DNA of 64,000 bases. Origin: a virus. The DNA is taken from the IMG/VR virus record IMGVR_UViG_3300042555_002820, positions 43,983 to 107,982 of that record; one strand, written 5' to 3'. The position numbers and the translations under genes were made by a program. This document shows positions 38,969 through 64,000 of this stretch, one piece after another. Below the pieces are notes generated by a model. The model saw only the letters and a list, made by a program, of their open reading frames with translations. It did no database searches and was not told the DNA's origin. The number at the start of each line of letters is the position of its first letter. The first letter of the stretch is position 1.

Positions 38969-41900
38969 ATGGCGGGTCAGAATATTAATCAATACGTTTA
39001 CCCAAATTTAAATCCGAAGTTAGCGTTAGAGAGTTATGATATGTCTTTAACCTCTGATGAAAGAGGTTTTAATATGGAGGTAGTGTTTTCTCCGTATTTG
39101 ATTGCCCAAACTTATGGTAATAGACTTCCATTCTATTTTGATATTAATAGTTCAATAACTAACCAAAAATTTACTTTAAATTATAAAGAGTATAACAGAA
39201 ATAATATTTTTGTTTCTGAAAATTATTATAACATAAATAATGAGGATTTAACTTGTTATTCTGCTCAGACATCTTGTGATATTGGGTTAACGGGTATCGA
39301 TAATGGACTCGTTACGGGAATGACAGGATATTCAATTACATTTACAAAGGGTTTATTTTCAGACGGATTAAAATTTGAAAGATTATATTTTGATAGAAGA
39401 TTAAAGTTATTTCAAGTAACCGCTAATACCAACTCACCAAATGTTAGATTTTCAGGGTTTCCAAATACTGTTTTATATGAAGTTGTAAGTAAATACGGTC
39501 AAACCGAAGGATTATATCACGAATTGTATGGTGGTTTCTATCAAGGTTTTTATCGGTTATTTGATTATGATTATGATATTTTCCCTGAAAGAGTAAATAA
39601 GGGTTGGACAATAGAGTTATTATTAAAACCTAGATTAGTTAGTGAATATTTCCCCGGACCTAACGAAACAACACTAAACTTATTATATCCTGAGAATGCA
39701 AATACATTCTTTTATTTAGGGACAAGAGCAGAAAATAAATTCTACCACCACGCTGACGGAACCCCAAATTGTTTTACAGGTTATACAAGATTTACATCAC
39801 CTTTAACCGGAATATCAACTTGTGCTTGTTGTAACAGAACTGTAACAAATAGTAGATGTATATATGTTTATCCACCACGTTCTAAAAATGGAGTTCACGA
39901 TACCCACGTTAATTATGGATGTGACAAATGTGGTTCGGATAAAATGACCCAAGCAACATGTGGATGTGGTTGCGATAAAATCGCATGTGCAACATGTGGA
40001 TGGGAATGTCAAATTCACGAATGTGCGGTTATAGTAGAAGTTACACCAACTCCCACCCCAACACCAACCTCAACCCTAAGTAATTGTATATTACCTCCAG
40101 TTTGTACCCCAACATGTAATACATGTTCAAACTGTACAGATTGTGTTGATTGTGTTTATACAGGATTTTCATCGATTGAAAATACTTGTGAAGTTGACCC
40201 AAAAATGGATGTGTTATCAAACAATATTTCATTTAGACTTTGTGGAGACCCAAAAAATCCGGGTATTGGAATAAGAGCAATTAAATTTACAGGGGGATGT
40301 GAGACAACGGGTTCTTGCGAAACTTCAGGAATTACATATACCACAGGTTATACGATATTAGATTACTGCACACCACCAATATATGAATATTGTCAAAATA
40401 TAAATTATTCGTTCATAGAACAAGAACATTGGTTCCAACTTGATGCGGTTTGGGAAAGATATACATGGTTAGATACTTGTGATTTATGGTATAGAGGAGG
40501 ATTGGGAGATATTACAAAAAAGGTTTATTTAGAATCACTGGCAAACAATTCGGTTTCTTTAATTGATTCTTCTCATACAAGAATGGACCCTAAGTCCACT
40601 TTAGAAATTGATATTGTAAGTTTAAACGAAAAATGGTTACTTGAAGAAAATTTTAGAAAAGGTAGGTTAAAAATCTATATTAATGGTAAACTCTTTTACA
40701 CCATTGAGGATTTTGAAGAGATAATACCAAGAGCTCTTAATACCGATAAAGAAAAACAAGTCGGGGTTCCATTTAACGTATCATGGGGTGGTGGAACACA
40801 AGGATTGAGAGAAAATTTAACATTTAACCCTAAGCCGGCTTGTGACATTGTATTTGGTATTGAAGTAGATTTATTATTATCAGGTTTTATTAGTGAAGGT
40901 TCAATAAATGCTCAGTATGTTTTAACATCAGGATTACCATATAAAGATGAAATACAAGTAAGTTTTAGAAATATTCTTAATAGAAAGAATGGTGGTCATT
41001 ATGAGATTGATAGTAAAGTTATTATACCTCCTTTTGGAATTTCAGGAGTTACATATGAAACTTTAAATGAAAACTTTAATGATTTGGATGGAACGGGATA
41101 TTACCTTAATGTCGAGGTGTTCCCAAAAACAATTATATCAAATTTTGATGTTGTTTCTGATGTTATATTTTTATCACCTACCCCAACACCAACTCCACCG
41201 GTTACTCCTACCACAACTCCAACACAAACTGAAACTCCAACTCCTACCCCAACAAATACTGAAACTCCAACTCCTACCCCAACATTCACACCAACCCCTG
41301 AGCAGGTTATAACAGATGCGATAATAACTAATGAAGTTGAATACATCGATGTTGGAAATGGGTTTTACTTGAAATTCATTGACCCTGAAGTTTTAGATAA
41401 TCCGATACTAACGGATAATGATGAATATATAATTGTTGGCAATTCCCTTTATTTAAAATATATTAACCCATCACCAATACCACCCCCAAGTAATACTCCA
41501 ACCCCAACGTTTACTCAAACACCAACCCCTACTTGTATACCATTTATTAATACTATCATTATTTCTAATGGTTCATATGTCGCCACTAATGGAACTTATG
41601 CAAGAAATAACTCTTCATCAGTTTTTACTCAATTGAGCGGAACTGGCGTTATATTTTTTGGTGGGGATGCATGGTATGTCAATTCAGGACCTGCTGGAAA
41701 TGTTGCTTGGAATACCTCTCAATTAGGGACAGGAACTTGGTCTCCTTTGCCACCAGGAAATTCATCAGGAATTATTGCAGAATATTATTATTATAATTGT
41801 GTAACACCTACAACAACTCCAACTGTAACCCAGACCCCTACAAATACTGAAACACCAACACCCACACCAACCCCAAGTCCATCAGAACCATTATATCCTC

Positions 41901-42484
41901 TTACCATAAACATTCAATCAATGAGTGGAGGTGAGTCAGTTATATTTGAAGGAATAACTTATACGGCAAATACTACTGTAAACATTTTAATTAATACTCC
42001 TTATCTTATTGATGGGGTACCGTCTCCAGGATATATATTAACTGGATGGGGTAGTATTGGCGGTGTTTCATTTGAGTTCTTGTCAGGAAACACTTGGACT
42101 TTTTCAATGAATTTTACAGGTGGCTCGAGTATTACCCCTCAATATGAAGAGATTCCAACACCTACACCTACGATAACTCCATCAATAACTCCAACTACAA
42201 CAATAACCCCAACTCCGTCATTAACCCCAAATTGTGTTCGTCAAATAGTTGTTCCAACATTATGGAATGGGGCAACTAGTATAAACAGTAATACACTTCA
42301 ATTAACTCAGACTTCAGAAACTTTACAAATACAAGTGAATGATGTTATAACAGATAATATTGGGGCAACAAGTTTTGTTGGAATTGTATCTTCAGACGGA
42401 ACTTATACATACGTATTTACAGGACCTGGTGGTGGGGTTTCATTTGATTGTGATTTCCCATTAACATTTTCTGGAACTTGTTAA
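38969..42484 (+). CDS. Large virion structural protein with Cys-rich and Pro/Thr insertions
   Basis: 1171 residues, no signal peptide. The first 280 residues look like a conserved phage structural domain ('WTIELLLKPRLVSEYF', about 213-228, LamG-like). At about 284-354 sits a Cys-rich insert with many CxxC and CxC pairs that recalls zinc ribbons, followed by a short Pro/Thr run and more Cys. The structural fold resumes to about 735 ('LKIYINGKLFYTIEDFEE'). The C-terminal third alternates Pro/Thr linkers with small domains: a duplicated 'NEVEYIDVGNGFYLKFI' unit (about 780-830), a beta domain (860-945), an InlB B-repeat-like domain (about 975-1058, 'GYILTGWG') and a terminal beta domain. It probably forms part of the baseplate or fibre with binding modules added. 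It has its own candidate late promoter. Confidence 0.7.
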   Translation: MAGQNINQYVYPNLNPKLALESYDMSLTSDERGFNMEVVFSPYLIAQTYGNRLPFYFDINSSITNQKFTLNYKEYNRNNIFVSENYYNINNEDLTCYSAQTSCDIGLTGIDNGLVTGMTGYSITFTKGLFSDGLKFERLYFDRRLKLFQVTANTNSPNVRFSGFPNTVLYEVVSKYGQTEGLYHELYGGFYQGFYRLFDYDYDIFPERVNKGWTIELLLKPRLVSEYFPGPNETTLNLLYPENANTFFYLGTRAENKFYHHADGTPNCFTGYTRFTSPLTGISTCACCNRTVTNSRCIYVYPPRSKNGVHDTHVNYGCDKCGSDKMTQATCGCGCDKIACATCGWECQIHECAVIVEVTPTPTPTPTSTLSNCILPPVCTPTCNTCSNCTDCVDCVYTGFSSIENTCEVDPKMDVLSNNISFRLCGDPKNPGIGIRAIKFTGGCETTGSCETSGITYTTGYTILDYCTPPIYEYCQNINYSFIEQEHWFQLDAVWERYTWLDTCDLWYRGGLGDITKKVYLESLANNSVSLIDSSHTRMDPKSTLEIDIVSLNEKWLLEENFRKGRLKIYINGKLFYTIEDFEEIIPRALNTDKEKQVGVPFNVSWGGGTQGLRENLTFNPKPACDIVFGIEVDLLLSGFISEGSINAQYVLTSGLPYKDEIQVSFRNILNRKNGGHYEIDSKVIIPPFGISGVTYETLNENFNDLDGTGYYLNVEVFPKTIISNFDVVSDVIFLSPTPTPTPPVTPTTTPTQTETPTPTPTNTETPTPTPTFTPTPEQVITDAIITNEVEYIDVGNGFYLKFIDPEVLDNPILTDNDEYIIVGNSLYLKYINPSPIPPPSNTPTPTFTQTPTPTCIPFINTIIISNGSYVATNGTYARNNSSSVFTQLSGTGVIFFGGDAWYVNSGPAGNVAWNTSQLGTGTWSPLPPGNSSGIIAEYYYYNCVTPTTTPTVTQTPTNTETPTPTPTPSPSEPLYPLTINIQSMSGGESVIFEGITYTANTTVNILINTPYLIDGVPSPGYILTGWGSIGGVSFEFLSGNTWTFSMNFTGGSSITPQYEEIPTPTPTITPSITPTTTITPTPSLTPNCVRQIVVPTLWNGATSINSNTLQLTQTSETLQIQVNDVITDNIGATSFVGIVSSDGTYTYVFTGPGGGVSFDCDFPLTFSGTC
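41182..41304 (+). repeat. Pro/Thr-coding repeat in the Cys-rich structural protein
   Basis: Encodes PTPTPPVTPTTTPTQTETPT-like sequence, including an 18-codon block repeated once (ACTGAAACTCCAACTCCTAC appears twice). Three shorter runs of the same type lie near 41492-41540, 41806-41880 and 42152-42231. Confidence 0.75.
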
Positions 42485-48068: not shown

Positions 48069-51000
48069 ATGCCGGCAACTGTTAAAATTGGTAGTAATAA
48101 TTATAGTGGTCAAACAGCAAATATAGTATTTTACCCTGAAACGGGTGGAACTATAAATGTAGGTCAACAAATTATACCATATAATTATGTAACTGATTAT
48201 TATTTTGGTACATACGAACTTATTTTTACATCAGACCAATATACTTGTAACTTTACAATACCTTCATCAAATCCGTTTCCTGTTTATATCGAACCAACTC
48301 CAGGTCCTAAGACTTATATATTAGATGGAACGTACAAACAAGACCCTGAAAATTTACCAACTAACGATTTTGTTGGGACCACATTTGAGGGTCTTCAGAC
48401 TAATATTTTATTAGAAAAATATTTTGCCGGTACTTTTGATGGAGGTATATCCCAATTCAGAATGTATGTTGAGCCGTTATCGGCACCTGAAGTAAAACAC
48501 AATTTCAAGTTACTGAAGGATAGGTTTAATATGTTTAACCCTGATTGTCCTGATTGTTTATTACCTGAGTGTGAAATTACTGGAGTTACTTATCAATTAG
48601 TAACACCATCAGTTACGGCAACAATAACTATAACTCCATCAAATACTAAAACACCAAGACCTACCGTTAGCCCAACTTCTACTATAACTCCTACTCCAGC
48701 CGAAACCTCAACTCCAACACCTACTAATTGTCCTATTATTGAGCCTACTATAGAACCAACTAACACCCCTACAAGAACCCCAACAATCACAAAAAGTAAT
48801 TCTCCAACACCATCAATTACGAAAACAGAAACTCCTACTAATACTAAAACGCCAACCCCAACTAAAACACCAACTAAGAGTAAAACGCCTATTAGTACAG
48901 TTACTAAATCTCCAAGTCAAACTCCCACAAATACAAAAACACCTACCCTAACCAAAACCCCAACTAAAAGTAAAACACCTATTAGTACAGTTACTAAGTC
49001 TCCAAGTCAAACTCCCACAAATACACCTTCAAACACATCTACTAAGACCCCAACTAAAACACCAACAGTTACGAAAACAAATACCGCAACAAATACACAA
49101 ACTCCATCAAATACTAAAACACCAAATCCGACTAGAACCGCATCCAAAACACCAACACCGACCAAAACATCAACTTCAAGTAATACTCCAACACCTACAG
49201 TCACTAGAACTGAAACACCAACTAACACGGCCACAAAAACTCCAACTAAAACACCTACAGTTACCAAAACAGAGACACCCACTAACACGGTTACAAAAAC
49301 TCCAACTAAAACACCTACAGTTACTAAAACAAAAACACCGACAAATACCCCAACGAAAACTTCAACTAAAACACCTACAGTTACTCCTTCACAAACTTAT
49401 TACCCACCAGAAATAATATACTTTAGTGGTTGTTGTATCCCGTATTATAATTACCAAATATTTACAGTACCATTATCAATTAAAACAGGACTTACTGATA
49501 ATCAAGTTTACTACATTGAGAGTACAGGGTTTTCAGGTTGTGGTACTTACCTCACCGCACTTACGTCCTACGACTTTTCATACTCATATCAAGGGTTTAC
49601 CGCTCAAACAGATTGTACAGAATGTGCAACCATTTCTGTTTGTCCTACACAAACTCCAACCCAAACTCAAACAAAAACACCAACACAAACTCCCACAATT
49701 ACACCAACAAAAACAAAAACACCAACCTTTACTCCGTCTGAGACACAAACTCAAACTCCTTCTAAAACGCCAACTAAAACTACAACACCAACTACGACAC
49801 CAACTAAAACTACAACACCAACTAAGACACCAACAAAAACTAAAACCCCAACTCCAACAGTTACACCAACCTCAACCAAAACTCCAACACCAACAAGAAC
49901 CAAAACTCCAACATCGACAATTACTTCAACAAATACCGCAACACAAACTCCAACTAAAACTCAAACTAATAGTCCTACTCAAAGTAGAACATCAACAATC
50001 ACTCCAACAAATACACAAACAAATACACCAACAAATACTCAAACTCCTTCAAATACCGTTACTCCGACCATTACACCTACAAACACAAAAACACCTACAA
50101 ACACAAAAACACCATTTGCATCACCTGAACCAACTCAAACTCCAACACAAACAAGAACTGAAACCCCAACAAAAACCAAAACCCCAACAAATACCCCAAC
50201 AAATACTCCAACAAAAACCAAAACCCCAACAAATACTCCAACAAAAACAATTACACCAAGTATTACACAAACTAAAACACCTACACCTTCTCAAGGACTT
50301 GGACCTGCATTACAAGATTGTGTAGTTCTTTATGTTAGCGGTCAAGATGTTTACGCTTACAATCCAACAAATAATCAAACATCTCAGTTGAATGTACCAA
50401 ATACTATGTTGGCTAACGATATTGCCCATACTAGTAATAAGTTGTGGTTATCTAGAATGGACTCTAACAATATTATCGAGGAGTGGAATATTAGTTTATC
50501 TCCATTCTTGGCCACTTATAATAGACAGATTACATCACCACACCCATTAGGATTTGGTTTATTCGCTAAAAATGACACAACATTAATTGCAACAAACCCA
50601 ACCACTACTCCTAATCAAATTGTTGAGCTCGACATAACTAATATTAATGCAACATCAACATTCCAATTCAATTTAACTCAAGGAAGAATTGTTACGGGTG
50701 ACTTTATGTTGACAACAAATAATAAACTAATTGTAACAACAACCGACGGAATAAACCAATATGTTGAACAATATAATTATTTAACAACAGGTAAGGAACT
50801 TGAATTTATTGTTAACATCGATAGTCCTGATGGATTATATGTTAATAATGGCGGAATTTATTTAATAAATGGAACATCTACAGGTATAATTTATAACGTA
50901 CAATTAACCCCACCATTCAACACATCATCAACAGTTGCCTTAGGTAGAGATACTAAAGGAACTTCACAGTTGGCTTCATGTGTAACCTCATTCTTCTCAC

Positions 51001-51263
51001 CAATACAAATCACCATCACTCCTTCTGTAACACAAACACCGACTCCGACAATTATACCTGAACCATTTACACCATTCATAGAGTGTTGTGACCCATATAG
51101 AATATTCTCATTGTACAATGTACCTCAGAATGTTCTATCAAGTTTAGTTTCTGACACTACTTATTACATAGAAGCGGTAGGTTTCTCAGGATGTGCGACC
51201 TACTCTCCATTTTTATCAACAGTAAATTACTATTATGATTATATAAGCATTCAAACCCCCTAA
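48069..51263 (+). CDS. Giant modular adhesin with two Cys-Cys modules and a beta-propeller
   Basis: 1064 residues, no signal peptide. Order: N-terminal beta domain (1-175; 'TANIVFYPETGGTINVGQQI'), related to the start of the gene at 61348; Pro/Thr linker (about 178-444); Cys-Cys module (448-524; starts 'GCCIPYYNYQIF'); second linker (526-744); beta-propeller (746-980; 'NDIAHTSNKLWLSRMDSNNI' is a typical blade start); short linker; C-terminal Cys-Cys module (1003-1064). The Cys-Cys modules recur in the genes at 4957 and 51271. Binding of host surface polymers is likely but unproven. It starts a cluster of three adhesins on the + strand, separated by only 7 and 13 bases. Confidence 0.82.
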   Translation: MPATVKIGSNNYSGQTANIVFYPETGGTINVGQQIIPYNYVTDYYFGTYELIFTSDQYTCNFTIPSSNPFPVYIEPTPGPKTYILDGTYKQDPENLPTNDFVGTTFEGLQTNILLEKYFAGTFDGGISQFRMYVEPLSAPEVKHNFKLLKDRFNMFNPDCPDCLLPECEITGVTYQLVTPSVTATITITPSNTKTPRPTVSPTSTITPTPAETSTPTPTNCPIIEPTIEPTNTPTRTPTITKSNSPTPSITKTETPTNTKTPTPTKTPTKSKTPISTVTKSPSQTPTNTKTPTLTKTPTKSKTPISTVTKSPSQTPTNTPSNTSTKTPTKTPTVTKTNTATNTQTPSNTKTPNPTRTASKTPTPTKTSTSSNTPTPTVTRTETPTNTATKTPTKTPTVTKTETPTNTVTKTPTKTPTVTKTKTPTNTPTKTSTKTPTVTPSQTYYPPEIIYFSGCCIPYYNYQIFTVPLSIKTGLTDNQVYYIESTGFSGCGTYLTALTSYDFSYSYQGFTAQTDCTECATISVCPTQTPTQTQTKTPTQTPTITPTKTKTPTFTPSETQTQTPSKTPTKTTTPTTTPTKTTTPTKTPTKTKTPTPTVTPTSTKTPTPTRTKTPTSTITSTNTATQTPTKTQTNSPTQSRTSTITPTNTQTNTPTNTQTPSNTVTPTITPTNTKTPTNTKTPFASPEPTQTPTQTRTETPTKTKTPTNTPTNTPTKTKTPTNTPTKTITPSITQTKTPTPSQGLGPALQDCVVLYVSGQDVYAYNPTNNQTSQLNVPNTMLANDIAHTSNKLWLSRMDSNNIIEEWNISLSPFLATYNRQITSPHPLGFGLFAKNDTTLIATNPTTTPNQIVELDITNINATSTFQFNLTQGRIVTGDFMLTTNNKLIVTTTDGINQYVEQYNYLTTGKELEFIVNIDSPDGLYVNNGGIYLINGTSTGIIYNVQLTPPFNTSSTVALGRDTKGTSQLASCVTSFFSPIQITITPSVTQTPTPTIIPEPFTPFIECCDPYRIFSLYNVPQNVLSSLVSDTTYYIEAVGFSGCATYSPFLSTVNYYYDYISIQTP
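48600..49397 (+). repeat. Pro/Thr-coding tandem repeat with 90-nt and 60-nt higher-order units
   Basis: A 64-nt core at 48871-48934 recurs at 48961-49024 (period 90 nt) with three mismatches, all at synonymous third codon positions. At 49201-49384 a 60-nt unit is repeated three times. The pattern shows duplication followed by selection on the protein sequence. Confidence 0.88.
49645..50298 (+). repeat. Second long Pro/Thr-coding tandem repeat
   Basis: About 218 residues of TPT(K/N/Q)T units with occasional Ser, Arg and a 'FASPEPT' word. It links the Cys-Cys module to the propeller. Confidence 0.85.
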
Positions 51264-51270
51264 AATATAA

Positions 51271-54200
51271 ATGCAATATACTCTTTTAAAAAATATAAAT
51301 TTAAATAACACATTTGAGATTGATAGAACTCAACTTAGAAGTCTATCACTTTCGAATGAAAAAAACGTAACTATTTCTTTACCTTTAAGAAATGTTACTA
51401 AAGATATTAATCTTACTAAGGCCAATATTTTTTCAGATAATTTTAATCTGTTATCATCAAGTGGGGATGTTTGCGGGGTTGATTTGGGTACCCATTATAG
51501 AGGTAAATTAGTAGATGACGAAAATTCTATAGTGTCTATTAGTTTTTTCAATGACCAAATTCATGGACATATTGTTTCACAAGATGGTACATTTGATATT
51601 AACCATCACGGTGACCTAATTTTTTCAACAGACTTAGTAGAAGGTCAACCTGACTTTAACTGCGGTACATCACATGAATCTGAAATACCCAAACAAAAAC
51701 AAACGTCTAGAAAAAACACAAAAAAACAAGATTTACAAAAACAAATCAACTCCAAAACAATTAACCCATATATTACTGAAGTCTCTACAAAATTAGTTAG
51801 ATTAGATTGGGAGATAGAATATGACATATTCCAAGCTTACGGGACAAGTACTTGGTGTAGAATTTTTGCTTTATTTAATGCATCGGCAACTCTTTTTGCC
51901 AACGATGGTATACAAGTTGTTTTATCTACCTTATATGGATGGGATTCATTTGCCTCACCATACATAAATTATTATTCAACCGTTACACCTGGCTCATCTG
52001 CCAGTGGATTGGGTGGAATAATTAGAAATTATAGAAAATATTGGGGTGACGGTAATATACCTCCAGGAGCACAATCTTGGCAATTTCAAGGTGATTTAAA
52101 ACACCTTTTGGCTATATCATATCCTATATTACCTGGACTTGGAGCGGGAGGTGTCTCAGACGGTCTTGGTACTTTATGTAACCCATTTTCGACCTCTACC
52201 ACTACTGGAAGTGCTGACTCTCCAGTTGTGTTCAGTCAATTGTTTCAGAGTCAAATTACAACTAATCCAAGTTCCACAGTTTATACATGGAATGTTAATG
52301 TTGTGACACACGAACAAGGTCATGCGTTTGATTCTCCACATACTTTTGGTTGTTATTGGAATGTTACTAATTGGACTCCTGGCGCTGAACCTATAGGTTG
52401 TGAAAGAATTGACAGTTGTAGATTCGAAAACAACACTTATTCTTTTTGCAGTGTTAATGGAAGCTTTCCATTATGTATAGACAATGGTTTTCCTGTAAAC
52501 GGAGGTACAATCATGTCCTATTGTCATCAAATTGCGGTAGGTATAAATTTTGCAAATGGATTTGGTCCCCAACCACAACAGAGAATAGTCAATTTTATTA
52601 ATGAACTAACTTGTCTTTGCCCAACCATACAAAGAGATATCGATTTCACTTTTACAGTAACCGGAAATTCTATTCAAGTTGTAAATTTAAATACGGTTTA
52701 TCCAAGAATGTGGGTTTGGGATGGAATGGTTTCAGATACTGTGTTTATAAATGAATTGGAACAAAATGGGGGAGTTGGGAATTTTATGCCAAACTCATTA
52801 TTTACCTCAGGTAAAATTGGACTTTCATTCGAATTTCCATTAAACTGTGAAGTTTGTTTTGATATAAACACTCTATTACCTGAACCGTGTTTTATCATAT
52901 GTGATAATGTTACACCAACACCAACCCCAACAAGAACTCAGACACCCACTAAAACACCAACCATTGGATTTGTCACACCAACCCCTACACGTACACGTAC
53001 AAGTACAGTAACATCAACACCAACTCCTACACGGACACGTACACAAACTTCTAATCTAATACCGTCATTAACACCAACAACTACTCAAACTCCAACACCA
53101 ACGAGAATACCAAATAATGTATGTACAGAACCAACGTCAGTTGCTTTTGGAAACGGAGCATCTTGGATATTAAATGGAATAACCTTAACCCATTCTTGGG
53201 ACCAAAACGTAACAATTATTACCGCAACAGGTACCTCAAGTTATTGTCAATCAAATCCAACTTTTTTAGCCCCCGATACGGTCGCTAACTTAGGTTGGAA
53301 TTCTAATATAAATGTTAGTGGTCCATTTACTTATAATATTGATTTTGATGTACCCGTAAATAATGTTCAGATTCTATATGCGGGTGCCGGTAATTCTGGT
53401 GTCCCATCATTAACTGAAACATTTACATTTACCACAAATACAGGTACCCCATCAATTGTACCCACATATACGTGTCTAACTACAATAAACGGTAATGTGT
53501 TAGTGGCCGGCTCCGGAAGTACATGGAGCTCGCCTAATCTTAACACCGGTACAGGTAAAATTACAATTAATAATTCCCAAAGTTACACAAGATTAACAAT
53601 TCAAGGTAACGGAGGTTCCCAATTTTGGAATGGAGCTGGAACTTCGTTTAAATTTTGTGTCCCATCACCAACATGTTGTAGTAGTTTTAGGCTAGACTCA
53701 AGTCCTTCAGATACAAGTGGAACTACTTTTTTAGTAGTTTTGTGTGACGGTACCATACAAAATATAAATGTACCAACAGGAACCTTCCAAGATTTAAATT
53801 GTGCTAATAATGTTTCTAAAATATCTGGTTTAGGCACTTACATAAGATATCCTGGATGTATATGTAATAGCCCAACCCCAACACCTACTAGAACTAAAAC
53901 TCCGGTGGTCCCTTCTTTGGGCGTTTTATTACTTTATGGTTTAGACATTTACACGTATCAAGTATCTACAAATAACCAAACTTTTTTTGGTACTTTAACT
54001 TTTACAGGAACCCCATTTTTTGAATCCAACGATATAACCCATACGAGTTCCAAAATTTTTGTTAAGGGGTATGTTGGTATAGATTTCGACGACCCTAATT
54101 TAATTTGTGCAATTGGTGAATGGAATTACACTATTAATCCATTTAGTTTAACATTTGTAAAATTTGTAGAACTACCCGACCCAATTGGTGAGTATCCAGG

Positions 54201-54969
54201 TTTGTTTGCAATAAACAATACCACTATTCTAACCTCGACTGATACTAACACAATACCCAATGGAATCGTTCAGATAAATATTTCTTCACCAACCCCGACG
54301 TTTACAACTATATTAGAATTTCCGTTTGGTTTCAGGACATTCGGTGATTATGTCTTAACGACTACAGGTAAATTACTTGTAATAGTTGTTGATTTTAATT
54401 TTAGAGATAAATACATATACCAATATGATTTTACAAATTTATCCGCAGGACCTGAGATAACTAAAATTTTAGGTGATGTTTTAGCAGAAAGATACCTTTT
54501 TGAGGATAATGGTAATTTATATTTTTTAACAAATTCATCACCATCTGAATTATATAGTGTAGGTCTAACTCCTCCATATGATTTAACTCAAACGAATACA
54601 CTTATATTCGATTTTTATAGCGGGGCGTCAAACACTTATTTAAACTCTACAGTTAATTTAATCCCTGGAGGACCAAGTTTAACTCCAACACAAACTCCCA
54701 CTATCACACCAACACCACAACCAACTAATATAGGTTGTGCTCAGTGTGTTAATTTACACCCTTGTGCTATCAGTAAATTTTTTGTAAGTTGTTGTGAGCC
54801 ATTTGATACAATCAGAATATATCTAATCCCTTTTCAAGTCGCTAATACATTGGTAAACGGTCAGTCATACTTTGTGGAGGCTGTCGGGTTTTCAAATTGC
54901 GCGGTATATAATGAGAATTTAAACACTGCAAATTTTTCTTTCGAGTATATTAATATAACACCACAATAA
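51271..54969 (+). CDS. Modular protein with metzincin (M12B/reprolysin-like) protease domain
   Basis: 1232 residues, no signal peptide. Residues 1-150 look like a protease prodomain ('YRGKLVDDENSIVSISFF' about 72-89). The protease (about 165-450) has the zinc site HEQGHAFDSPH (347-357; His347, Glu348, His351, His357) and the Met-turn 'GTIMSYC' (Met415), as in bacterial reprolysin-like metzincins. Asp354 replaces the usual Gly of HExxHxxGxxH. Cys-rich loops follow the zinc site. Downstream: linker (about 548-614), beta-sandwich (615-800), Cys-containing domain (801-866), beta-propeller (about 880-1135), and a C-terminal Cys-Cys module (1168-1232). Cleavage of host surface or extracellular proteins is inferred. 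It is followed after 13 bases by a paralogue. Confidence 0.85.
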   Translation: MQYTLLKNINLNNTFEIDRTQLRSLSLSNEKNVTISLPLRNVTKDINLTKANIFSDNFNLLSSSGDVCGVDLGTHYRGKLVDDENSIVSISFFNDQIHGHIVSQDGTFDINHHGDLIFSTDLVEGQPDFNCGTSHESEIPKQKQTSRKNTKKQDLQKQINSKTINPYITEVSTKLVRLDWEIEYDIFQAYGTSTWCRIFALFNASATLFANDGIQVVLSTLYGWDSFASPYINYYSTVTPGSSASGLGGIIRNYRKYWGDGNIPPGAQSWQFQGDLKHLLAISYPILPGLGAGGVSDGLGTLCNPFSTSTTTGSADSPVVFSQLFQSQITTNPSSTVYTWNVNVVTHEQGHAFDSPHTFGCYWNVTNWTPGAEPIGCERIDSCRFENNTYSFCSVNGSFPLCIDNGFPVNGGTIMSYCHQIAVGINFANGFGPQPQQRIVNFINELTCLCPTIQRDIDFTFTVTGNSIQVVNLNTVYPRMWVWDGMVSDTVFINELEQNGGVGNFMPNSLFTSGKIGLSFEFPLNCEVCFDINTLLPEPCFIICDNVTPTPTPTRTQTPTKTPTIGFVTPTPTRTRTSTVTSTPTPTRTRTQTSNLIPSLTPTTTQTPTPTRIPNNVCTEPTSVAFGNGASWILNGITLTHSWDQNVTIITATGTSSYCQSNPTFLAPDTVANLGWNSNINVSGPFTYNIDFDVPVNNVQILYAGAGNSGVPSLTETFTFTTNTGTPSIVPTYTCLTTINGNVLVAGSGSTWSSPNLNTGTGKITINNSQSYTRLTIQGNGGSQFWNGAGTSFKFCVPSPTCCSSFRLDSSPSDTSGTTFLVVLCDGTIQNINVPTGTFQDLNCANNVSKISGLGTYIRYPGCICNSPTPTPTRTKTPVVPSLGVLLLYGLDIYTYQVSTNNQTFFGTLTFTGTPFFESNDITHTSSKIFVKGYVGIDFDDPNLICAIGEWNYTINPFSLTFVKFVELPDPIGEYPGLFAINNTTILTSTDTNTIPNGIVQINISSPTPTFTTILEFPFGFRTFGDYVLTTTGKLLVIVVDFNFRDKYIYQYDFTNLSAGPEITKILGDVLAERYLFEDNGNLYFLTNSSPSELYSVGLTPPYDLTQTNTLIFDFYSGASNTYLNSTVNLIPGGPSLTPTQTPTITPTPQPTNIGCAQCVNLHPCAISKFFVSCCEPFDTIRIYLIPFQVANTLVNGQSYFVEAVGFSNCAVYNENLNTANFSFEYINITPQ
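52910..53112 (+). repeat. Pro/Thr/Arg-coding repeat
   Basis: Encodes [14 protein letters not shown]-like sequence, richer in Arg than other linkers (ACACGTACACGTAC and ACACGGACACGTAC blocks near 52987 and 53030). It lies directly after the protease region. Confidence 0.8.
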
Positions 54970-54982
54970 TTATATATAAAAT

Positions 54983-57900
54983 ATGAAGTCATTAAGTTTA
55001 CATAAGAGTTTTAACATCAACGGAAAGTTTCAATTAGATGATGATGTTTTTAGTGAATTAATGACTATGAAACACAGTCAAATTATGTTGACTGTACCAT
55101 TATCAGGTGTTGAAAAACAACTTATATTAAATAGAAATGATTTAAGTAAATCTAATTTAAGATTCACTACTGATGAAAATATTTCATCTTACATTGACAA
55201 TAGTGTACACTATGGGGGTAAAGTTGAAGGTTCTGCCAGTTCATTCGTTGCCGTATCATTCAGTGAATTTGGTATATACGGCATAGTTGAGGATGATTTT
55301 GTTCAATATGGTTTTGATAAAAACGAAGATGGTTCGTTTATTCTAACCAAACACGAGAATTTAATTGACCCTTGGGAATGCGGTGTTGACCCATCTAACA
55401 TGCCTAATAATACTGAAAATTACAGGTCTATTGATAGAAAAATCAAACAAGGTTATAGTTTAACATCAACAACAAAATGCATTAATGTTAGGTGGGATGT
55501 TGAGTTTAATGCAATACAAACCTTCGGTGGATTACCTCAAGCTCAGTCCTGGATTACCTCACTATTCAATGCAACTCAACAATTATATTTAAACGAAGGG
55601 ATTCAAATTTATTTACAAACTTTAAATTTCTTTACTTCAGGACCATCAGGGCTTTTTAATAGTAGCACCACACAAAGTCTTTTAAATTATACTAATTATA
55701 GAGTCCAACAGAATAATATTGTTGAAGATACCGCAATGTATTTATCTTTTGGACTTACAAATAGCGGTGGAGGAGTTGCCAATAGTATTGGTAGTATGTG
55801 TGGACAAGGTATTTTTGGTCCTTCAAGTGGACCACTTTCTGGAAAGACCGGTAGATTTTCTTACACACAAATGAGGATTGGTGATTCAGGTGCAACCCCA
55901 AGTTCTGTTTCTTATAGTCGTACAGTTAAAGTTGTAACACACGAACAAGGTCACGTATTCGGCTCACCTCACACTAAGGGTTGTTATTGGAATGTAACAA
56001 ATTGGACTCCTGGTTCTGACACATTCGGTTGTCAAATGTTGGATGGTTGTAATAATGGTCAAAATTTGGAGTGTCCTGATGGTGTAGGAGGAATAGGATA
56101 TGGAAGACCGTTATCTAACATTAGTTTTTGTAGCGCTTTTCCTTCATGTGCCGGATTAAACTGTGTCCCTCCAAATTGGTGTTGTGGAGTGCCCCCAGTT
56201 CCAAGTTTTGGAACTATTATGAGTTATTGCGATACTAACGGAGCAGCGCCAGTTAGTTTTGCGCTAGGTTTTGGTCCAATACCAAGACAAAGAATTATTG
56301 ATTTTATAAATGATGATTTTGACTGTATTACCTGTTCTGGCCCTCCAGTAGACCCAACCCCTCCACCAACCCCATCAAATACACCAACTAATACACCAAC
56401 CAAAACAATAACCCCATCTAAAACAAAAACACCGACTGTTACACCGTCTAACACCAAAACTCCAACAGTTACTAAAACACCATTTTTAAGTCCTGACCCA
56501 ACTTCATCACCGACACAAACACCATCAATAACGCCTAGTATTAATAATCAGACTGAATGTGAACAGTGTTTAGAAAATCATCCGTGTGCGACTCCAACTC
56601 CGACATCAATACCTTGCGCCGACCAAGTCATAACTGTACCAGTAACACCTCCTCAGACTATAATACCACTAACAAGATTTAGGAACAGTGTATATTCAAA
56701 CCAAGGTTCTATATTCTACATAAATGGATATAATTTTGGAGGAAATGGAACTAACTTTGCAGCTTCTCAAACTCCTAACGTTTGGAAGAATACCATTACG
56801 GTTATCGGACAAGAACAAGGACCTTTAAATCGAAGTGGTATATGGGCACCATCAGGTTTTGGATTCCCAATAGACACATGGTTAGGATTTTCGACTTGTT
56901 TTACGGGTATAACAGTTGGAAAAGTATATTGGGTGGGTATTGCTGGAGACAATTATTATAGAATATCTTTAGATGGTACTGAAATAGTAAATTCTTATTT
57001 TGGTACATACACTCCGGCAAATCCTCCTTTACAAAATTTATCATTCATTTATTGGCACGTATATCCTGTCTATATATCACCAGGAAATCATGTTATTACG
57101 GTTTTGGGGGCAAACGATGGAAATGCTGCGGTATTTGGATGTGAAATTTATGATAACACAATCCAAGAATTAACAGGAGCCACTTCTATAAATGATTTGA
57201 ATATTATCTTTACGACTTCTGGTTTTTCTGAAGCAACTGTGGTCCAAACTCTTGGGGGCATTGACTTACCAAGTGGTTATACGTGTCCTGTTGGTTATGT
57301 GTATAGGTCTTGTGCTGATGACTGCGTCAGATTAAATCCTTGTGAAACACTTACCCCAACTCCAACAATGACTAATACTCCGACAAAAACCCCAACAATT
57401 ACTCGGACTCCTTCAATGACTAAAACACCATTTTTATCACCGGACCCAACATCTTCACAGACTAAAACTCCAACTAATACTCCTACCAATACTAAGACTC
57501 CTACCAATACTAAGACTCCATTTGTAACTAATTCTCCGACACAAACACCCGTAGTTTCATCTAGCCCAACACAAACAGTACAAGGGCCTATAACCCCCAC
57601 ACCAACAACTACTATAACTCCAACAAAATGTTGTAGTAGATTTGAAATCTCAACATTTCAAGGAGGAACTGTTTCTATATTGCTTTGTCAAGATACTTTT
57701 CCTATAAATTTTCAGTTATCCGCAGGACAATATATTGACGGGTGTTTTCAAAGTGCAACATTAGTTAGCGGTACTGCCAGTATTTTAAGTTTTTATAATT
57801 GTAGTTGCACATTTCCAACTAACACCCCACCCCCAACCCAATCTATAACCCCCACAAAAACATCATTTTTTCCAACAACTACTCCAACAAAAACCCCCAT

Positions 57901-60900
57901 AAAAACATTTTTACCATGTCAATCCATATTGATGTCCGTTGAAAGAAGGGTTACTGGTCCAAATGGGTCACAAACATATTACCAAAATATCATGTATTAT
58001 GATATCTCAATTAATTCATACGTATATATAGCAGGAACTGGCTTTCCGTTTCCTCCCTATTCAGTATATGATGACATTGCTCATAGTAGAACTAAATTGT
58101 GGTATTTGAAAAGTAATTTTTCAAATGTATCATCACAACCTAACTGGCAGTCTATTCCGACTAACTACCCTGGAATTTACGAATATGATATAACTAATTG
58201 GCAACCATTTACTCTATCATTCAGTAGATTTATACCATATTTAATAGAAAACCCTACTTTGGGTCCTGACGGTTATCCTACCACCAGTATTAATTATTTA
58301 GGGGTATCTTTAGCCTACTTTGGTAATGACCAACAATTAATGGGTTCCCAATTAATTTTTCAATCAAATGATAGATTATCAATATTTGATATGACTCAAG
58401 ACCAAATCATAATAATTGATTTGAGAGCATTACCGTCTGTAACTTTAAGTAATGCCGGTGATATTGTTGTTTCATCTTTTGGACAAATATTCGTAATGGC
58501 AGGAGTTCAGACTGGCGGAAACTTTAGTTATTTTGCCGAAGTATATGTTTTTGAAAACATTCCTCCATATAATCAGAGTTATACTTTCAATTTTACAATT
58601 TTAACAAACGCTCCAGGTGCGGATACTGGAGGTATGTTTGAGTGGTACGGAAAAATATATTTTACATTCCAATCTTGTTATCAATGTCCCCAAGAACTTT
58701 ATGAAATAAGACAGACTCCTCCCTTTGGAATTACTTTTGTAGTTGAAATTGAATCAAGTCCTTTTTATTATATACGAGGAGCGTCTAGTATTTTTGATTG
58801 CCCAACCCCAACTCCAACAGGTGTAGAACCTACACCAACCCCAACAAGAACCAGAACACCTAGTAGACAAACACCAACACCAACAAGAACTCAAACCCCA
58901 ACACAAACAAGAACTCCATCTGTTACTCCAACAAATACAAGAACTCAAACCCCCACACCAACTCCTGGACTACCCCCAAGTCAAACACCAACAAATACAC
59001 AAACACCAACAAATACATCTACTAACACAAGAACCCCTACCAAAACTAAAACACCAGGATTAACGGCACCAACTACAACTCCTTCACAAACAAATTTTGC
59101 AACAAATACACCTACTAAAACATCCCAAGCTCCTGATTCTTCTCAAACACCAACCCCAACAAAAACTAAAACCACAACACCAACCCCAACAAAAACTAAA
59201 ACCCCAGGGTCAAGCCCTGACCCAACAACTAGTCCTACTGAAACACCGACTAAAACTCCAACTCAAACACCAACTAAAACTCAAACACCATCAATAACCC
59301 CTACTAAAACTAAAACCCCAACTCCGACCAAAACCATAGGAGCAACCCCTGACCCAACAACTAGTCCTACCGAAACCCCAACAAAAACCCCAACAAAAAC
59401 CCCAACAAATACATCAACACCCCCAAAAACACCTGACCCTACAACATCACCAACTCAAACTCCGACTAACACCCCAACTAAAACAAAGACTCAAACACCA
59501 ACAAAAACTTTTGTACCTGAAGTTTTGAAATTACAAGTTAAAAATAGAGATGGTGTTAATCCGATGAATATTGTATTAGGTAGTAACAATACGGGAGCAT
59601 TGAATGGTACCGTTGATTGGGGTAACGCCTTACCATTACAAAATTTTAATTTAGGAGCTTCGAGCAATACTACATTGACAAATACTTATGGACCGGGTAC
59701 ATTTACCGCAACAGTTAGCAACTTTAATCCACCGGCTCCTCTAGGCCAGTTAATCACAATAACATTACAAAGAATAAGTGAAATAATTCCTTTAAATACA
59801 TTCACAAGTACAAACTACCCTTCTTTGAGATTTGTAACAATATCGGCTTCAACATTAAATGAAATACCAATAACGTTCCCTAATAGTATTGAAAGTATTA
59901 GGTTCGAATTAGTACAGGGAGTGTTTAATTTTAACCCTGTCTCGATTGGTAACGGATTAAAACAAATTTATTTCATTGTAACCTCCGTACAAAATATAAA
60001 TTGGGATTTTTCCAACACTGTTTTGGAATGGTTCGAGGTGTTAGGAAGTCTTGGAACCTCTGGAGGAGGAAGCTTATCTTCAATAAATGTTACATTCCCA
60101 ACAACTATAAAAAATATTCTAATTAACAAGAATTATACATCAATATTACCACTACAAAATATGTCATTTAACTTAAACTTGACATATACCTCTTTAACTG
60201 GAATCACTATTACTGATAATAGACTATCCGCTTTTAGTGAAATCATCCCTCAAAATGTTCAAATAATTAATTTGAATAATAACAGTACTTCAAGCTCTGA
60301 TTTGAGAAATAGAATTAGTAATTTTACTCCAAATTTTTCAAATGCGACTAGTTTAACTACATTAGATATCAGTAATAATCAAGTTATCCCAAGTATACCT
60401 TCATCAATATCCTCATGTTCATCTTTGATAACTATTGATGCTTCTACAAATAACATTTCTACATTACCAACGTTACCTAATTCGGTTAGAACCTTAGATT
60501 TAGGGGCTAACAATTTTTCAGGAAATTTCTCATTTCCACTCCCAACAAACCTGAGAGTACTAGATTTGGGTCAAAACAACGTGGCGAAAAGAAATAGTAT
60601 AACTACTTTTTCATCCACACTAACTACAACTCAAATTTCGGCGTTTACAATAAATGCGAATTTGTTAACTTCGTGGACCACACAGTTCCCAAATACTATC
60701 AGAACTGTAGATTTTGCGGGCGCCGCTAATAATAGAAATCGCATTACCACCTTAGATTTAAGTTTGTTCCCTGGAATTGTTTCATTAGACATTTCCCAAC
60801 AGACTTACCTTTCAAGTGGTGTTACTTTAAAAAGTTTTACAGGGTTTATTAATTTTAATTCAGTATCCGCAACATTAAAATCTTTAGACATCAGTAATAA

Positions 60901-61279
60901 TATTTTTACATCTGGACCCTCAAATCTAACTCCACTACCACCAGGACTTACTGCGTTGACTATGAATAATATTTTTGGTCCGGGTGTAGTAGCAACGGTA
61001 GGTGGTTCTTATCCTTTTAGTAATTGGAATATACCTTTATTACCTACTTGTCCTAATATTAAAAATATTGAATTAAGATATAGTAAATTAACACAGACTG
61101 CGGTAGACTTTATACTATGTAATTTATCCGCAACTACTGTGGTAGGTGGTACATTATACTTGGATAATTCAAATGGCACTGGAGACGCGGTTAATTCAGC
61201 TCCATCAGCCATTGGAATAGGTTGTAGAAATACTTTGACAGGTACTCCTAAAAACTGGACAGTACTTGTTGCTCAGTAA
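54983..61279 (+). CDS. Giant metzincin protease-adhesin with C-terminal leucine-rich repeats
   Basis: 2098 residues, no signal peptide. Order: prodomain-like region (1-150; '[19 protein letters not shown]'); metzincin protease (about 155-450) with a perfect [11 protein letters not shown] (320-330; Gly327 present) and Met-turn 'GTIMSYC' (Met413); linker (456-546); PA14-like domain (550-790), a clear relative of that in the gene at 4957; linker; a Cys-containing domain (about 882-946); a short linker; beta-propeller (about 980-1273); a 240-residue linker; and a leucine-rich-repeat region (about 1510-2098; '[11 protein letters not shown]', '[11 protein letters not shown]', '[11 protein letters not shown]'). 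The combination suggests a protease delivered to a surface target through several binding modules. It is the tandem paralogue of the gene at 51271. Confidence 0.85.
56347..56625 (+). repeat. Pro/Thr-coding repeat between protease and PA14-like domain
   Basis: Encodes [20 protein letters not shown]-like sequence with an '[12 protein letters not shown]' word that recurs at about 57427 in the next linker. Confidence 0.8.
57349..57628 (+). repeat. Pro/Thr-coding repeat after the PA14-like domain
   Basis: About 90 residues; includes the exact short repeat CCTACCAATACTAAGACTCC in tandem near 57482-57519. Shares the 'FLSPDPTSS' word with the previous linker. Confidence 0.8.
58798..59515 (+). repeat. 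Longest Pro/Thr-coding repeat of the protease-LRR protein
   Basis: About 240 residues before the leucine-rich repeats. A '[15 protein letters not shown]' block is present in two near-identical copies (about 59219-59257 and 59351-59390) and again shortened near 59434. Confidence 0.85.
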
Positions 61280-61347: not shown

Positions 61348-64000
61348 ATGTCCCAACAAATTGTAATCGAAAGTATTAACTTCGATGGTGAATTAGCTAT
61401 CATTTTATTTACCCCACTAGGTGAAAGTGATGTCATTAACTTAGGTCAGGTTATATTACCTTACGAATTTAATCCTGGTTTACTATCCCCACCTAAAGAT
61501 ATTTATGGGTCCTATAATGTTTTAACATCGGGTGGGACTTGTTCTAATATATTAAATGTTTTACCAACAACTCCAACTCTAACCGCATCAAATACCAAAA
61601 CCCCTTCACCAACTTCATCCCCTACAAATACTCCACAACCATTAACACCAACGTCAACTCCATGCCCAACAAAAACCCCAACCAAAACAAGAACTCAAAC
61701 ACCTACTAATACTCCTTCGAATACCACCACTCAAACAAATACTCCTTCAAACTCTCAAACTCAGTCTAATACACGAACTCCAACAATTACTAAAACCCCG
61801 ACCAAAACACCTACAAATACAAAAACCTCAACATTAACTGCATCTGTAACCAAAACACAGACCGGAACCAATTTCCCTTCTAAAACTCCAACTAAGACCC
61901 CTACAATAACGAAAAGTCAAACATCAACAAACACTCAAACTCCATCACAAACAGATACTCCAAATCCATCGAGAACCGCAACAAAAACTCCAACCATTAC
62001 AAAATCTCAAACTTCAACAAACACTAAAACTCCAACTCCAACCGATACTCCAAATCCATCAAGAACTGCAACAAAAACTCCAACCCCTACAAAAACTCAA
62101 ACAAGAACTCAAACCCCAACTCCAACATTAACTCAAACTTCATTCGCCATAGTAACAGGAAGTACTGAATGTGATGAACCTTTAACTGTATCATTGGCCG
62201 GACCAGGACAATTTACATATTCTGTTTTTGTAGGAAGTGAAATTGGGAAAGTTCCTTTTTATTTCAACGCTCAGTTTGTTCCTGATTGGTTCAGAGTTTA
62301 TTGGGATGGTGATTTAGTAATTGATACAGGATTTAGAGGAGACCCTACACAAAATTCAAGATTAATTGCTTTAGGTTATCCCCCTGTTTCAGGTACAGGG
62401 CAAGGGACGGATTCTTTTTTCAAATCGGCATCTACACCTGATACCGTAACTGTGGTGGTTGTTGCTCCATTACCTGGTACAGTATGGAGTGTTGTGTTAG
62501 ATTGTCCGACAAAACTTGATACTCCTACTCCTACTAAAACTCCTACACAAACACAAACACCTTCGAACACACCTACTAAAACTATTACCAAAACACCATC
62601 TAAAACACCAACTCAAACTAAAACACCAACAAAAACGCCAACACCATCAACCACTAGTCCTGTGAATTTCTCAGGTAATGTTAACTGTGATATACCAATC
62701 ACGGTTTCTAATGGTTACAATGGGATATACACTTATGATATTGAATTGGGAGCTCAGACAGGAGTTATAACATTTACATTTAACTCAGGAATTGTACCAA
62801 ATAGATTTATATTATATTATGATAATTTGGTAGTTATTGATAGTGAATTCTGGGGTGACCCATCCTATAATCCACAATTAAACTCATTGGGTTACCCATC
62901 GGTAATTGATGTTGGTAACGGTTCATATCAATTTACAAAATTGTTAAGTTTCCCAACTAATGCAATATTAGAAGTAATTTCTCCAATTTCTAATGTTACA
63001 TGGACTGCGGAAGTTTCTTGTCCTGTACCGATACCTAGTGAAACTCCAACCAAAACCCCCACTAAAACTCAAACTCCAACCAAAACCCCCACTAAAACTC
63101 AAACTCCAACACAAACTATAACAAAATCACCTACTTCAACTCCAACACAAACAAAAACACAAACCGCTAGTAACACTGCGACAAAAACTCCAACTAAAAC
63201 TCCCACCCCAACGAAATCAAACACACCTTCAAATACTTCAACTATTACAAATACGCCAACCCCAAACCCGTCAAGAACTCCGACAAAAACACAAACTCCA
63301 ACAAAAACAAATACTCCATCGAACACCCCCACTAGAACTGTTACTAAAACCTCAACTCAAACACCAACTGTAACAAAGACATCAACAAAAACTCCAACAG
63401 TAACCAAAACTAATACTCCAAGTTCTAGTGCCCCCGAAACCCCAAAACCAACATATACTCCAACTAAGAGTCAAACTCCAAGCTCAACTGTAACTAGAAC
63501 TTCAACAAAAACACCTTCACCGACAAGAACGTCAAGTCAAACTCCAAGTAATACAACTTCACCAACAAATACACCATCTAAAACACCTACTAAAACACCA
63601 ACATCAACTAGCCCTCCACCAACACCATCTAACACTCCAACAAATACTCAAACTCCAACAAAGACACCATCTAACACTCCAACAAATACGGTTACTAAAA
63701 CACCATCTAAAACACCTACCAAAACACCAACACAAACAAGAACACCGGATACAACTCCACCAGAAACCCTAAGCCCAACTCCAACTACCTCACAAACAAA
63801 GACTCCGACACCGACAAATACTCAAACTAAAACACAGACACCGACAAATACTAAAACTTCAACTCAGACCCCAACTAACACACCATCTGTAACCGTTACC
63901 AAAACATCAACACAAACACCAAGCTTAACCAAAAGCCCAACTCCGACAAGAACTCAAACTAAAACTCCGACAAGAACTCAAACTCCAACTCAAACTAGTG
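61348..64000 (+). CDS. Giant modular adhesin, 3' end outside window
   Basis: The frame is open from the ATG at 61348 to the window edge, giving 884 visible residues. Residues 1-70 ('ELAIILFTPLGESDVINLGQ') are related to the N-terminal domain of the gene at 48069. Then: linker (about 73-265), 'DTGFRG' domain (268-388; 'DLVIDTGFRGDPTQNSRLI'), short linker, a second copy of that domain (about 438-560; here 'IDSEFWGD'), and a very long linker from about 562 to the window edge (more than 320 residues). The same domain occurs once in the gene at 4957. No signal peptide. The function is inferred from its relatives: host-surface binding. Confidence 0.8.
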   Translation, partial: MSQQIVIESINFDGELAIILFTPLGESDVINLGQVILPYEFNPGLLSPPKDIYGSYNVLTSGGTCSNILNVLPTTPTLTASNTKTPSPTSSPTNTPQPLTPTSTPCPTKTPTKTRTQTPTNTPSNTTTQTNTPSNSQTQSNTRTPTITKTPTKTPTNTKTSTLTASVTKTQTGTNFPSKTPTKTPTITKSQTSTNTQTPSQTDTPNPSRTATKTPTITKSQTSTNTKTPTPTDTPNPSRTATKTPTPTKTQTRTQTPTPTLTQTSFAIVTGSTECDEPLTVSLAGPGQFTYSVFVGSEIGKVPFYFNAQFVPDWFRVYWDGDLVIDTGFRGDPTQNSRLIALGYPPVSGTGQGTDSFFKSASTPDTVTVVVVAPLPGTVWSVVLDCPTKLDTPTPTKTPTQTQTPSNTPTKTITKTPSKTPTQTKTPTKTPTPSTTSPVNFSGNVNCDIPITVSNGYNGIYTYDIELGAQTGVITFTFNSGIVPNRFILYYDNLVVIDSEFWGDPSYNPQLNSLGYPSVIDVGNGSYQFTKLLSFPTNAILEVISPISNVTWTAEVSCPVPIPSETPTKTPTKTQTPTKTPTKTQTPTQTITKSPTSTPTQTKTQTASNTATKTPTKTPTPTKSNTPSNTSTITNTPTPNPSRTPTKTQTPTKTNTPSNTPTRTVTKTSTQTPTVTKTSTKTPTVTKTNTPSSSAPETPKPTYTPTKSQTPSSTVTRTSTKTPSPTRTSSQTPSNTTSPTNTPSKTPTKTPTSTSPPPTPSNTPTNTQTPTKTPSNTPTNTVTKTPSKTPTKTPTQTRTPDTTPPETLSPTPTTSQTKTPTPTNTQTKTQTPTNTKTSTQTPTNTPSVTVTKTSTQTPSLTKSPTPTRTQTKTPTRTQTPTQTS
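61563..62143 (+). repeat. Pro/Thr-coding repeat with a duplicated block of about 100 nt
   Basis: A block ending in GATACTCCAAATCCATC and the following Arg-Thr-Ala codons occurs at about 61952 and again at about 62042, with mostly synonymous changes. Confidence 0.85.
62515..62662 (+). repeat. Short Pro/Thr-coding linker between two 'DTGFRG'-type domains
   Basis: Encodes [20 protein letters not shown]-like sequence; joins the two related domains of the last gene. Confidence 0.8.
63035..64000 (+). repeat. Pro/Thr-coding repeat running off the window
   Basis: More than 320 residues. A 30-nt unit is exactly duplicated at 63041-63070 and 63071-63100, followed by a partial third copy. This is the longest uninterrupted linker of the window and is not finished at its edge. 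Confidence 0.9.

Follow-up and report, generated by a model that had tools for sequence, protein, structure and literature searches.

Tandem genes of a T4-like phage encode giant adhesins with putative M12B-type metzincin zymogens at their N termini

Two tandem genes in a run of phage adhesins

The 64,000-nucleotide stretch analyzed here (the window) comprises bases 43983-107982 of the 107,982-base IMG/VR virus record IMGVR_UViG_3300042555_002820. On its + strand, a run of adhesin genes holds in tandem two open reading frames (ORFs), proteins 1 and 2, each of which appears to join an N-terminal zinc protease of the metzincin type to linkers and adhesin modules; the gaps are 7 bases before protein 1 and 13 bases between the two. 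A reading made from the sequence alone (the sequence-only reading) had proposed metzincins built into adhesins at this locus, and both ORFs and their zinc sites lie exactly at the positions it gave, with its Met-turn motif present in each protein. The features of the two proteins are as follows.

51271-54969 (+): putative metzincin-adhesin protein 1, 1232 amino acids
51271-51720 (+): protein 1 prodomain, residues ~1-150, no signal peptide
51661-51663 (+): protein 1 invariant Cys131, candidate for a cysteine switch
51781-52620 (+): protein 1 predicted M12B-like catalytic domain, residues ~171-450
52309-52341 (+): protein 1 zinc site HEQGHAFDSPH, residues 347-357, with Asp replacing the usual Gly
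52504-52524 (+): protein 1 Met-turn GTIMSYC, residues 412-418
52894-53127 (+): protein 1 Thr/Pro-rich linker, residues 542-619
53947-54750 (+): protein 1 putative propeller-like module, residues 893-1160, common to the adhesin at 48069-51263
54778-54966 (+): protein 1 C-terminal module of ~60 residues, in two copies in the adhesin at 48069-51263 and also in ORFs of related phages
54983-61279 (+): putative metzincin-adhesin protein 2, 2098 amino acids
54983-55432 (+): protein 2 prodomain, residues ~1-150
55379-55381 (+): protein 2 invariant Cys133
55475-56332 (+): protein 2 predicted M12B-like catalytic domain, residues ~165-450
55940-55972 (+): protein 2 zinc site [11 protein letters not shown], residues 320-330, on model helix 309-325
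56210-56230 (+): protein 2 Met-turn GTIMSYC, residues 410-416
56684-57334 (+): protein 2 module, residues 568-784, 48% identical to a metzincin protein of a related phage
58802-59524 (+): protein 2 long Thr/Pro linker, residues 1274-1514
59531-61264 (+): protein 2 C-terminal leucine-rich-repeat region, residues 1517-2094, common to the adjacent adhesin in related phages

The LRR_4 match within the last region (residues 1789-1833) falls under the Pfam cut-off, and no propeller family of Pfam matched either protein, although the propellers named in the sequence-only reading are plausible.

Family assignment and active site

Protein 2 matched the Pfam family Reprolysin_5 above the cut-off (E = 2.1e-10) and protein 1 under it (4.7e-5), and the N-terminal units of ~450 residues of the two proteins are homologous to each other (30% over 483 columns, 2e-47). 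An alignment of 21 phage and bacterial sequences has 13 invariant columns, which include the three zinc histidines, the glutamate and the methionine (H320, E321, H324, H330 and M413 in protein 2 numbering); the T, M, S and Y of TIMSY, in the Met-turn after the zinc site, do not vary either. These active-site residues are kept in 21 of 21 relatives, even in phage copies with only 24-47% identity to protein 2. The motif HEXXHXXGXXH/D is exact in protein 2, and in protein 1 every His and the Glu are kept with Asp in place of Gly, a position occupied by Thr in the copy of a related phage, G003. Given the Reprolysin_5 matches, the mutual homology and the 13 invariant columns, the metzincin assignment is, on sequence grounds, far beyond chance, and the full zinc site and Met-turn claimed for both proteins are confirmed. 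Searched singly against the PDB with phmmer, the proteins gave nothing useful, whereas a profile of the 21-sequence family matched adamalysins (4.8e-14) and ADAM17 including its prodomain (3.3e-9).

Predicted fold and zymogen architecture

The first AlphaFold model, of protein 1 with 13 sequences, was of moderate confidence (predicted local distance difference test score, pLDDT, 60), and protein 2 was then modelled with 21 relatives. The protein 2 model (predicted template modelling score 0.80) places the zinc motif on a confident helix, residues 309-325, behind a beta-rich and confidently predicted prodomain. Its top PDB match was zymogen ADAM17 (9.8e-12), with further matches to Bacteroides metalloproteinase II and to snake-venom and ADAM catalytic domains, several at a root mean square deviation of 2.4-2.9 Å (2.4 Å over 174 columns for the ADAM8 catalytic domain). 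The protein 1 model led to the same families at lower confidence. With a profile of the prodomain only, the top five PDB matches were five ADAM17 zymogen chains, each weak alone (E 0.0095-0.03). The predicted structure is thus an M12B-type metzincin zymogen fold and not a non-metzincin one, and the prodomain-like N terminus that had been suggested is borne out by the protein 2 model, its zymogen matches and the prodomain profile.

The sole invariant cysteine of the prodomain (Cys131 in protein 1, Cys133 in protein 2) aligns with the cysteine switch PKVCGY of ADAM17 and may bind the zinc; pLDDT is low where this contact would lie. Both proteins are apparently self-inhibited zymogens, the prodomain probably acting with a cysteine switch.

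Absence of a signal peptide

Neither protein 1 nor protein 2 has a signal peptide by hydropathy, a measure for which signal-peptide proteins of the same phage served as positive controls. The peak 11-residue hydropathy near the N terminus is 0.13-0.77 in the signal-less phage class to which they belong, compared with 1.87-2.95 in bacterial relatives, in phage versions with signal peptides and in this phage's own secreted proteins. Each ORF was extended upstream to the earliest start codon that follows a stop, and 7 bases separate protein 1 from the end of the gene before it, so no longer N terminus is hidden. These results support the sequence-only reading in its view that Sec export is the less likely route. 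A Pfam search likewise found no Por_Secre_tail match, the sorting tail of the type IX secretion system (T9SS), in either protein.

Metzincin units are shared and fused with adhesins

Three further adhesin ORFs of the window bear on the architecture of proteins 1 and 2.

38969-42484 (+): conserved adhesin (QNINQY...)
48069-51263 (+): protease-free adhesin with modules common to protein 1, 7 bases upstream of it
61348-64000 (+): next adhesin ORF, running off the contig, with the same Thr/Pro linkers

With the Thr/Pro linkers masked, ~340 C-terminal residues of protein 1 are common to the adjacent adhesin at 48069-51263, and protein 2 has modules in common with adhesins of related phages. In two relatives (G001 and G002) three consecutive metzincin ORFs occupy the same place; the copy number varies from 1 to 3, and metzincins are absent from most related contigs that have the conserved adhesin. 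In G003 and G048, the metzincin unit lies inside a single ORF of 2.65 thousand residues, at ~370-807 in the middle of the conserved adhesin, where it is flanked by residues matching 1-352 and 402-619 of the window ORF 38969-42484. Adhesin residues 1-358 and 1645-1860 of these fusions are 65-73% identical to that ORF. The two assemblies, which come from different metagenomes, are 99.1% identical with a 23-residue difference in length. Mis-assembly of G003 through Thr/Pro repeats was considered and rejected, as the entry junction is not repeat sequence and the second assembly agrees. Both the common modules and the one-polypeptide fusion uphold the proposal that the protease is built into adhesins.

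Homologues of the conserved adhesin were present in 11 of the 24 related contigs checked, mostly without a metzincin, and in at least 173 places in IMG/VR. Among the best 80 loci (L184-L263), 29 have a papain-like (C1) domain at the C-terminal end of this adhesin, as do L171, L172, L174 and L175, and the Cys, His and Asn motifs are in place in most of the 29. In L117 (3-1766), a metzincin is joined via Thr/Pro linkers to the catalytic core of a glycosyl hydrolase (PF11790, 9e-24). From the metzincin fusions, the papain-like ends and this glycosyl hydrolase, the conserved-adhesin system appears to acquire degradative enzymes, mostly proteases, repeatedly. Whether metzincin and papain-like domains exclude each other was also weighed, and the counts proved too low to support such a claim. 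A free-standing copy of the papain-like protease was seen at L112:3990-4673.

Origin of the metzincins and identity of the phage

The close cellular relatives of the metzincins are secreted Bacteroidota proteases with signal peptides, and the family occurs in 37 of 45 genomes of one order. A single-sequence scan of viral contigs returned no relative, whereas alignment-based scans did. Phage copies without a signal peptide group as a single clade (support 100/97) in a 45-sequence tree. Within it, L004:9995 is the partner of protein 1 (99/93) and L004:7965 that of protein 2 (100/100), pairings which place the duplication before the split of these phages. The GC content of the metzincin regions (0.34-0.35) fits that of the phage (0.33) and not that of the bacterial relatives' loci (0.40-0.63).

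Metzincins that do have signal peptides are encoded on other IMG/VR contigs and form separate branches of the tree; three of these contigs (G041, G044 and G046) carry Gp23 and are T4-like too. In L120 (8904-11338) and L124 (8923-11359), a signal-peptide metzincin gene starts a few bases after a GH19 endolysin, an arrangement that may represent a lysis-cassette protease in T4-like phages.

Three genes on the contig identify the record as a T4-like phage: those for the portal (T4-type, 1.6e-75), the major capsid protein (Gp23, 6e-74) and the terminase (T4-type, 4.6e-14). Capsid proteins from Flavobacterium phage immuto, a Microcystis phage and an uncultured phage show ~41-43% identity to that of this record across 53-61% of its length, and more than 590 related terminases are found in IMG/VR. 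The phage also encodes a LamG-domain protein with a T9SS sorting tail (G000:4416-5444, equivalent to L017:4416-5444; Por_Secre_tail, 1.2e-11), which is unusual in a phage. This tail and the origin of the metzincins together point to a Bacteroidota host.

Proposed function

We lean, without great assurance, toward the view that proteins 1 and 2 are adhesins of a T4-like Bacteroidota phage that carry an N-terminal latent M12B zinc endopeptidase cutting host surface proteins; here we infer the virion location, the activity, the activation step and the substrate. The fusion of the same metzincin, or of a papain-like protease, to the conserved adhesin in related viruses suggests that attachment by these phages goes along with cleavage of host surface proteins. 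The M12B-type protease would be an ancient acquisition from the host group, derived from a secreted enzyme, that lost its signal peptide and became joined to the phage's own Thr/Pro-linked adhesin modules. The protein would be made in the cytoplasm as an inactive zymogen, mounted on the tail or a fibre of the virion or set free together with the particle, and become active outside the cell, where it may cut host surface proteins near the binding site of the linked modules and so give access to the receptor or free the particle. Polysaccharide depolymerases do likewise for capsules. Tailspike and fibre depolymerases resemble proteins 1 and 2 in that an enzyme and adhesin modules, here putatively receptor-binding, stand on one phage protein and are swapped between phages, although those enzymes cut polysaccharides and the metzincin-adhesins would cut proteins.

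Several points weigh against this view. Searches of Pfam, the PDB and GenBank phages gave the conserved adhesin no match that would link it to an established virion component. In the G003 fusion, proteolytic removal of the prodomain would separate the two halves of the adhesin core. Protein 1 has Asp where metzincins have Gly, and the surroundings of the Met-turn are poorly modelled (pLDDT <50 at residues 351-433 of protein 1 and 332-405 of protein 2).

A broader proposal, which we regard as plausible but hold only tentatively, is that T4-like Bacteroidota phages of a widespread family share a virion adhesin on which different proteases can be exchanged, an ADAM-like zymogen metzincin in some and a papain-like enzyme in many others. 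These would act as proteolytic tailspikes stripping host surface proteins, in parallel to the depolymerases of polysaccharides.

It is unlikely, though a serious alternative, that the proteins are public enzymes released at lysis and not located on the virion, and that they degrade the extracellular matrix, the S-layer or decoy surface proteins on debris and on cells nearby. The lack of signal peptides would suit such a role, as would the secreted sister type that other phages encode immediately behind a GH19 endolysin, and the secreted, phage-derived metzincin Mtz of Listeria, which often follows holin-lysin and eases phage lysis (PMC8235301). However, the metzincins are joined to adhesin modules and long linkers and lie inside the conserved adhesin in G003 and G048, and the endolysin-linked version, which exists separately and has a signal peptide, shows that a lysis enzyme need not take the form of proteins 1 and 2. 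We consider it improbable that the metzincin fold is catalytically silent and retained as a structural or binding module of the fibre. Loss of the metzincin Gly, to Asp in protein 1 and to Thr in the copy of G003, could be read in this way, but every copy retains the three His, the Glu and the Met-turn despite wide divergence elsewhere, and the prodomain and its Cys, which would be pointless in a dead enzyme, are kept. Slighter again is the prospect of a virion maturation or adhesin self-processing protease cutting phage rather than host proteins: although the genes have giant adhesins with long, exposed linkers as neighbours, their cellular relatives are secreted enzymes, and a gene present in 1 to 3 copies and absent from most related adhesin-bearing contigs is unlike an assembly protease. 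An ordinary host-expressed enzyme secreted by an unrecognised route, such as the T9SS without a classical signal, is very improbable, for although the host group uses the T9SS and one phage protein bears a T9SS sorting tail, neither protein has a Por_Secre_tail match or a hydrophobic N terminus, and T9SS cargo requires Sec first.

Comparison with known systems

The secreted M12B-like proteases of Flavobacteriales/Bacteroidota (L006-L013) share the prodomain and catalytic domain with protein 1 at ~29-36% identity and keep all active-site residues and the Cys; theirs have a signal peptide and bacterial C-terminal domains, whereas the phage copies lack the former and have Thr/Pro linkers and phage adhesin modules. 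ADAM17 and the adamalysins (M12B) share the zymogen fold predicted here, HEXXHXXXXXH, the Met-turn and a Cys aligned to the cysteine switch, but identity in the structural alignment is ~12-18% and the phage proteins are without disintegrin, EGF and membrane parts. The zymogens of fragilysin and Bacteroides metalloproteinase II are likewise Bacteroidota metzincins with a prodomain and a structural match, although weaker than that of ADAM17, and are secreted and not phage-borne. Known adhesin-borne phage enzymes have mainly polysaccharide or peptidoglycan targets. Listeria Mtz/Tim, the nearest precedent, is also a metzincin of phage origin that acts outside the cell, but it has a signal peptide and no adhesin and modifies the host's own envelope (PMC8235301).

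The sequence-only reading had known of no such enzyme described as a phage virion or lysis-released protein, and this remark stands in part. We found no adhesin-borne phage metzincin in the literature searched, which covered few subscription journals; searches on phage metzincins, M12B, reprolysin, virion metalloproteases and protease-bearing fibres gave only Listeria Mtz and FtsH in phage MIJ3, a different enzyme. A tblastn search of 50,697 GenBank phage records with proteins 1 and 2 and two relatives gave no match, none of the viral predicted structures matched at E <= 0.001, and PHROGs held no family for the protease part. The remark calls for two corrections: Listeria Mtz, secreted, phage-derived and easing lysis, has been published (PMC8235301), and secreted metzincins with signal peptides occur in other Bacteroidota phages, some adjoining an endolysin.

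If the proposed function is correct, adhesin proteases would explain passage through the protein-rich surface of gliding Bacteroidota, a zymogen-controlled enzyme would sit on a phage particle, and these phages would be a source of new surface-shaving proteases. Given the distribution, any cultured member would allow a direct test of the idea.

Other genes of the record

A C-terminal fragment of an archaemetzincin (M54) lies at the contig start (G000:3-188, L017:3-188; Pfam 2.4e-9, NCBIfam 1.8e-12), which adds another kind of metzincin to this phage. A subtilase (S8, 4.6e-31) with a signal peptide is encoded between the capsid genes and the giant ORFs (G000:34415-36739, L018:14415-16739), and L017:15794-17842 encodes a ClpA/ClpB-type AAA+ ATPase.

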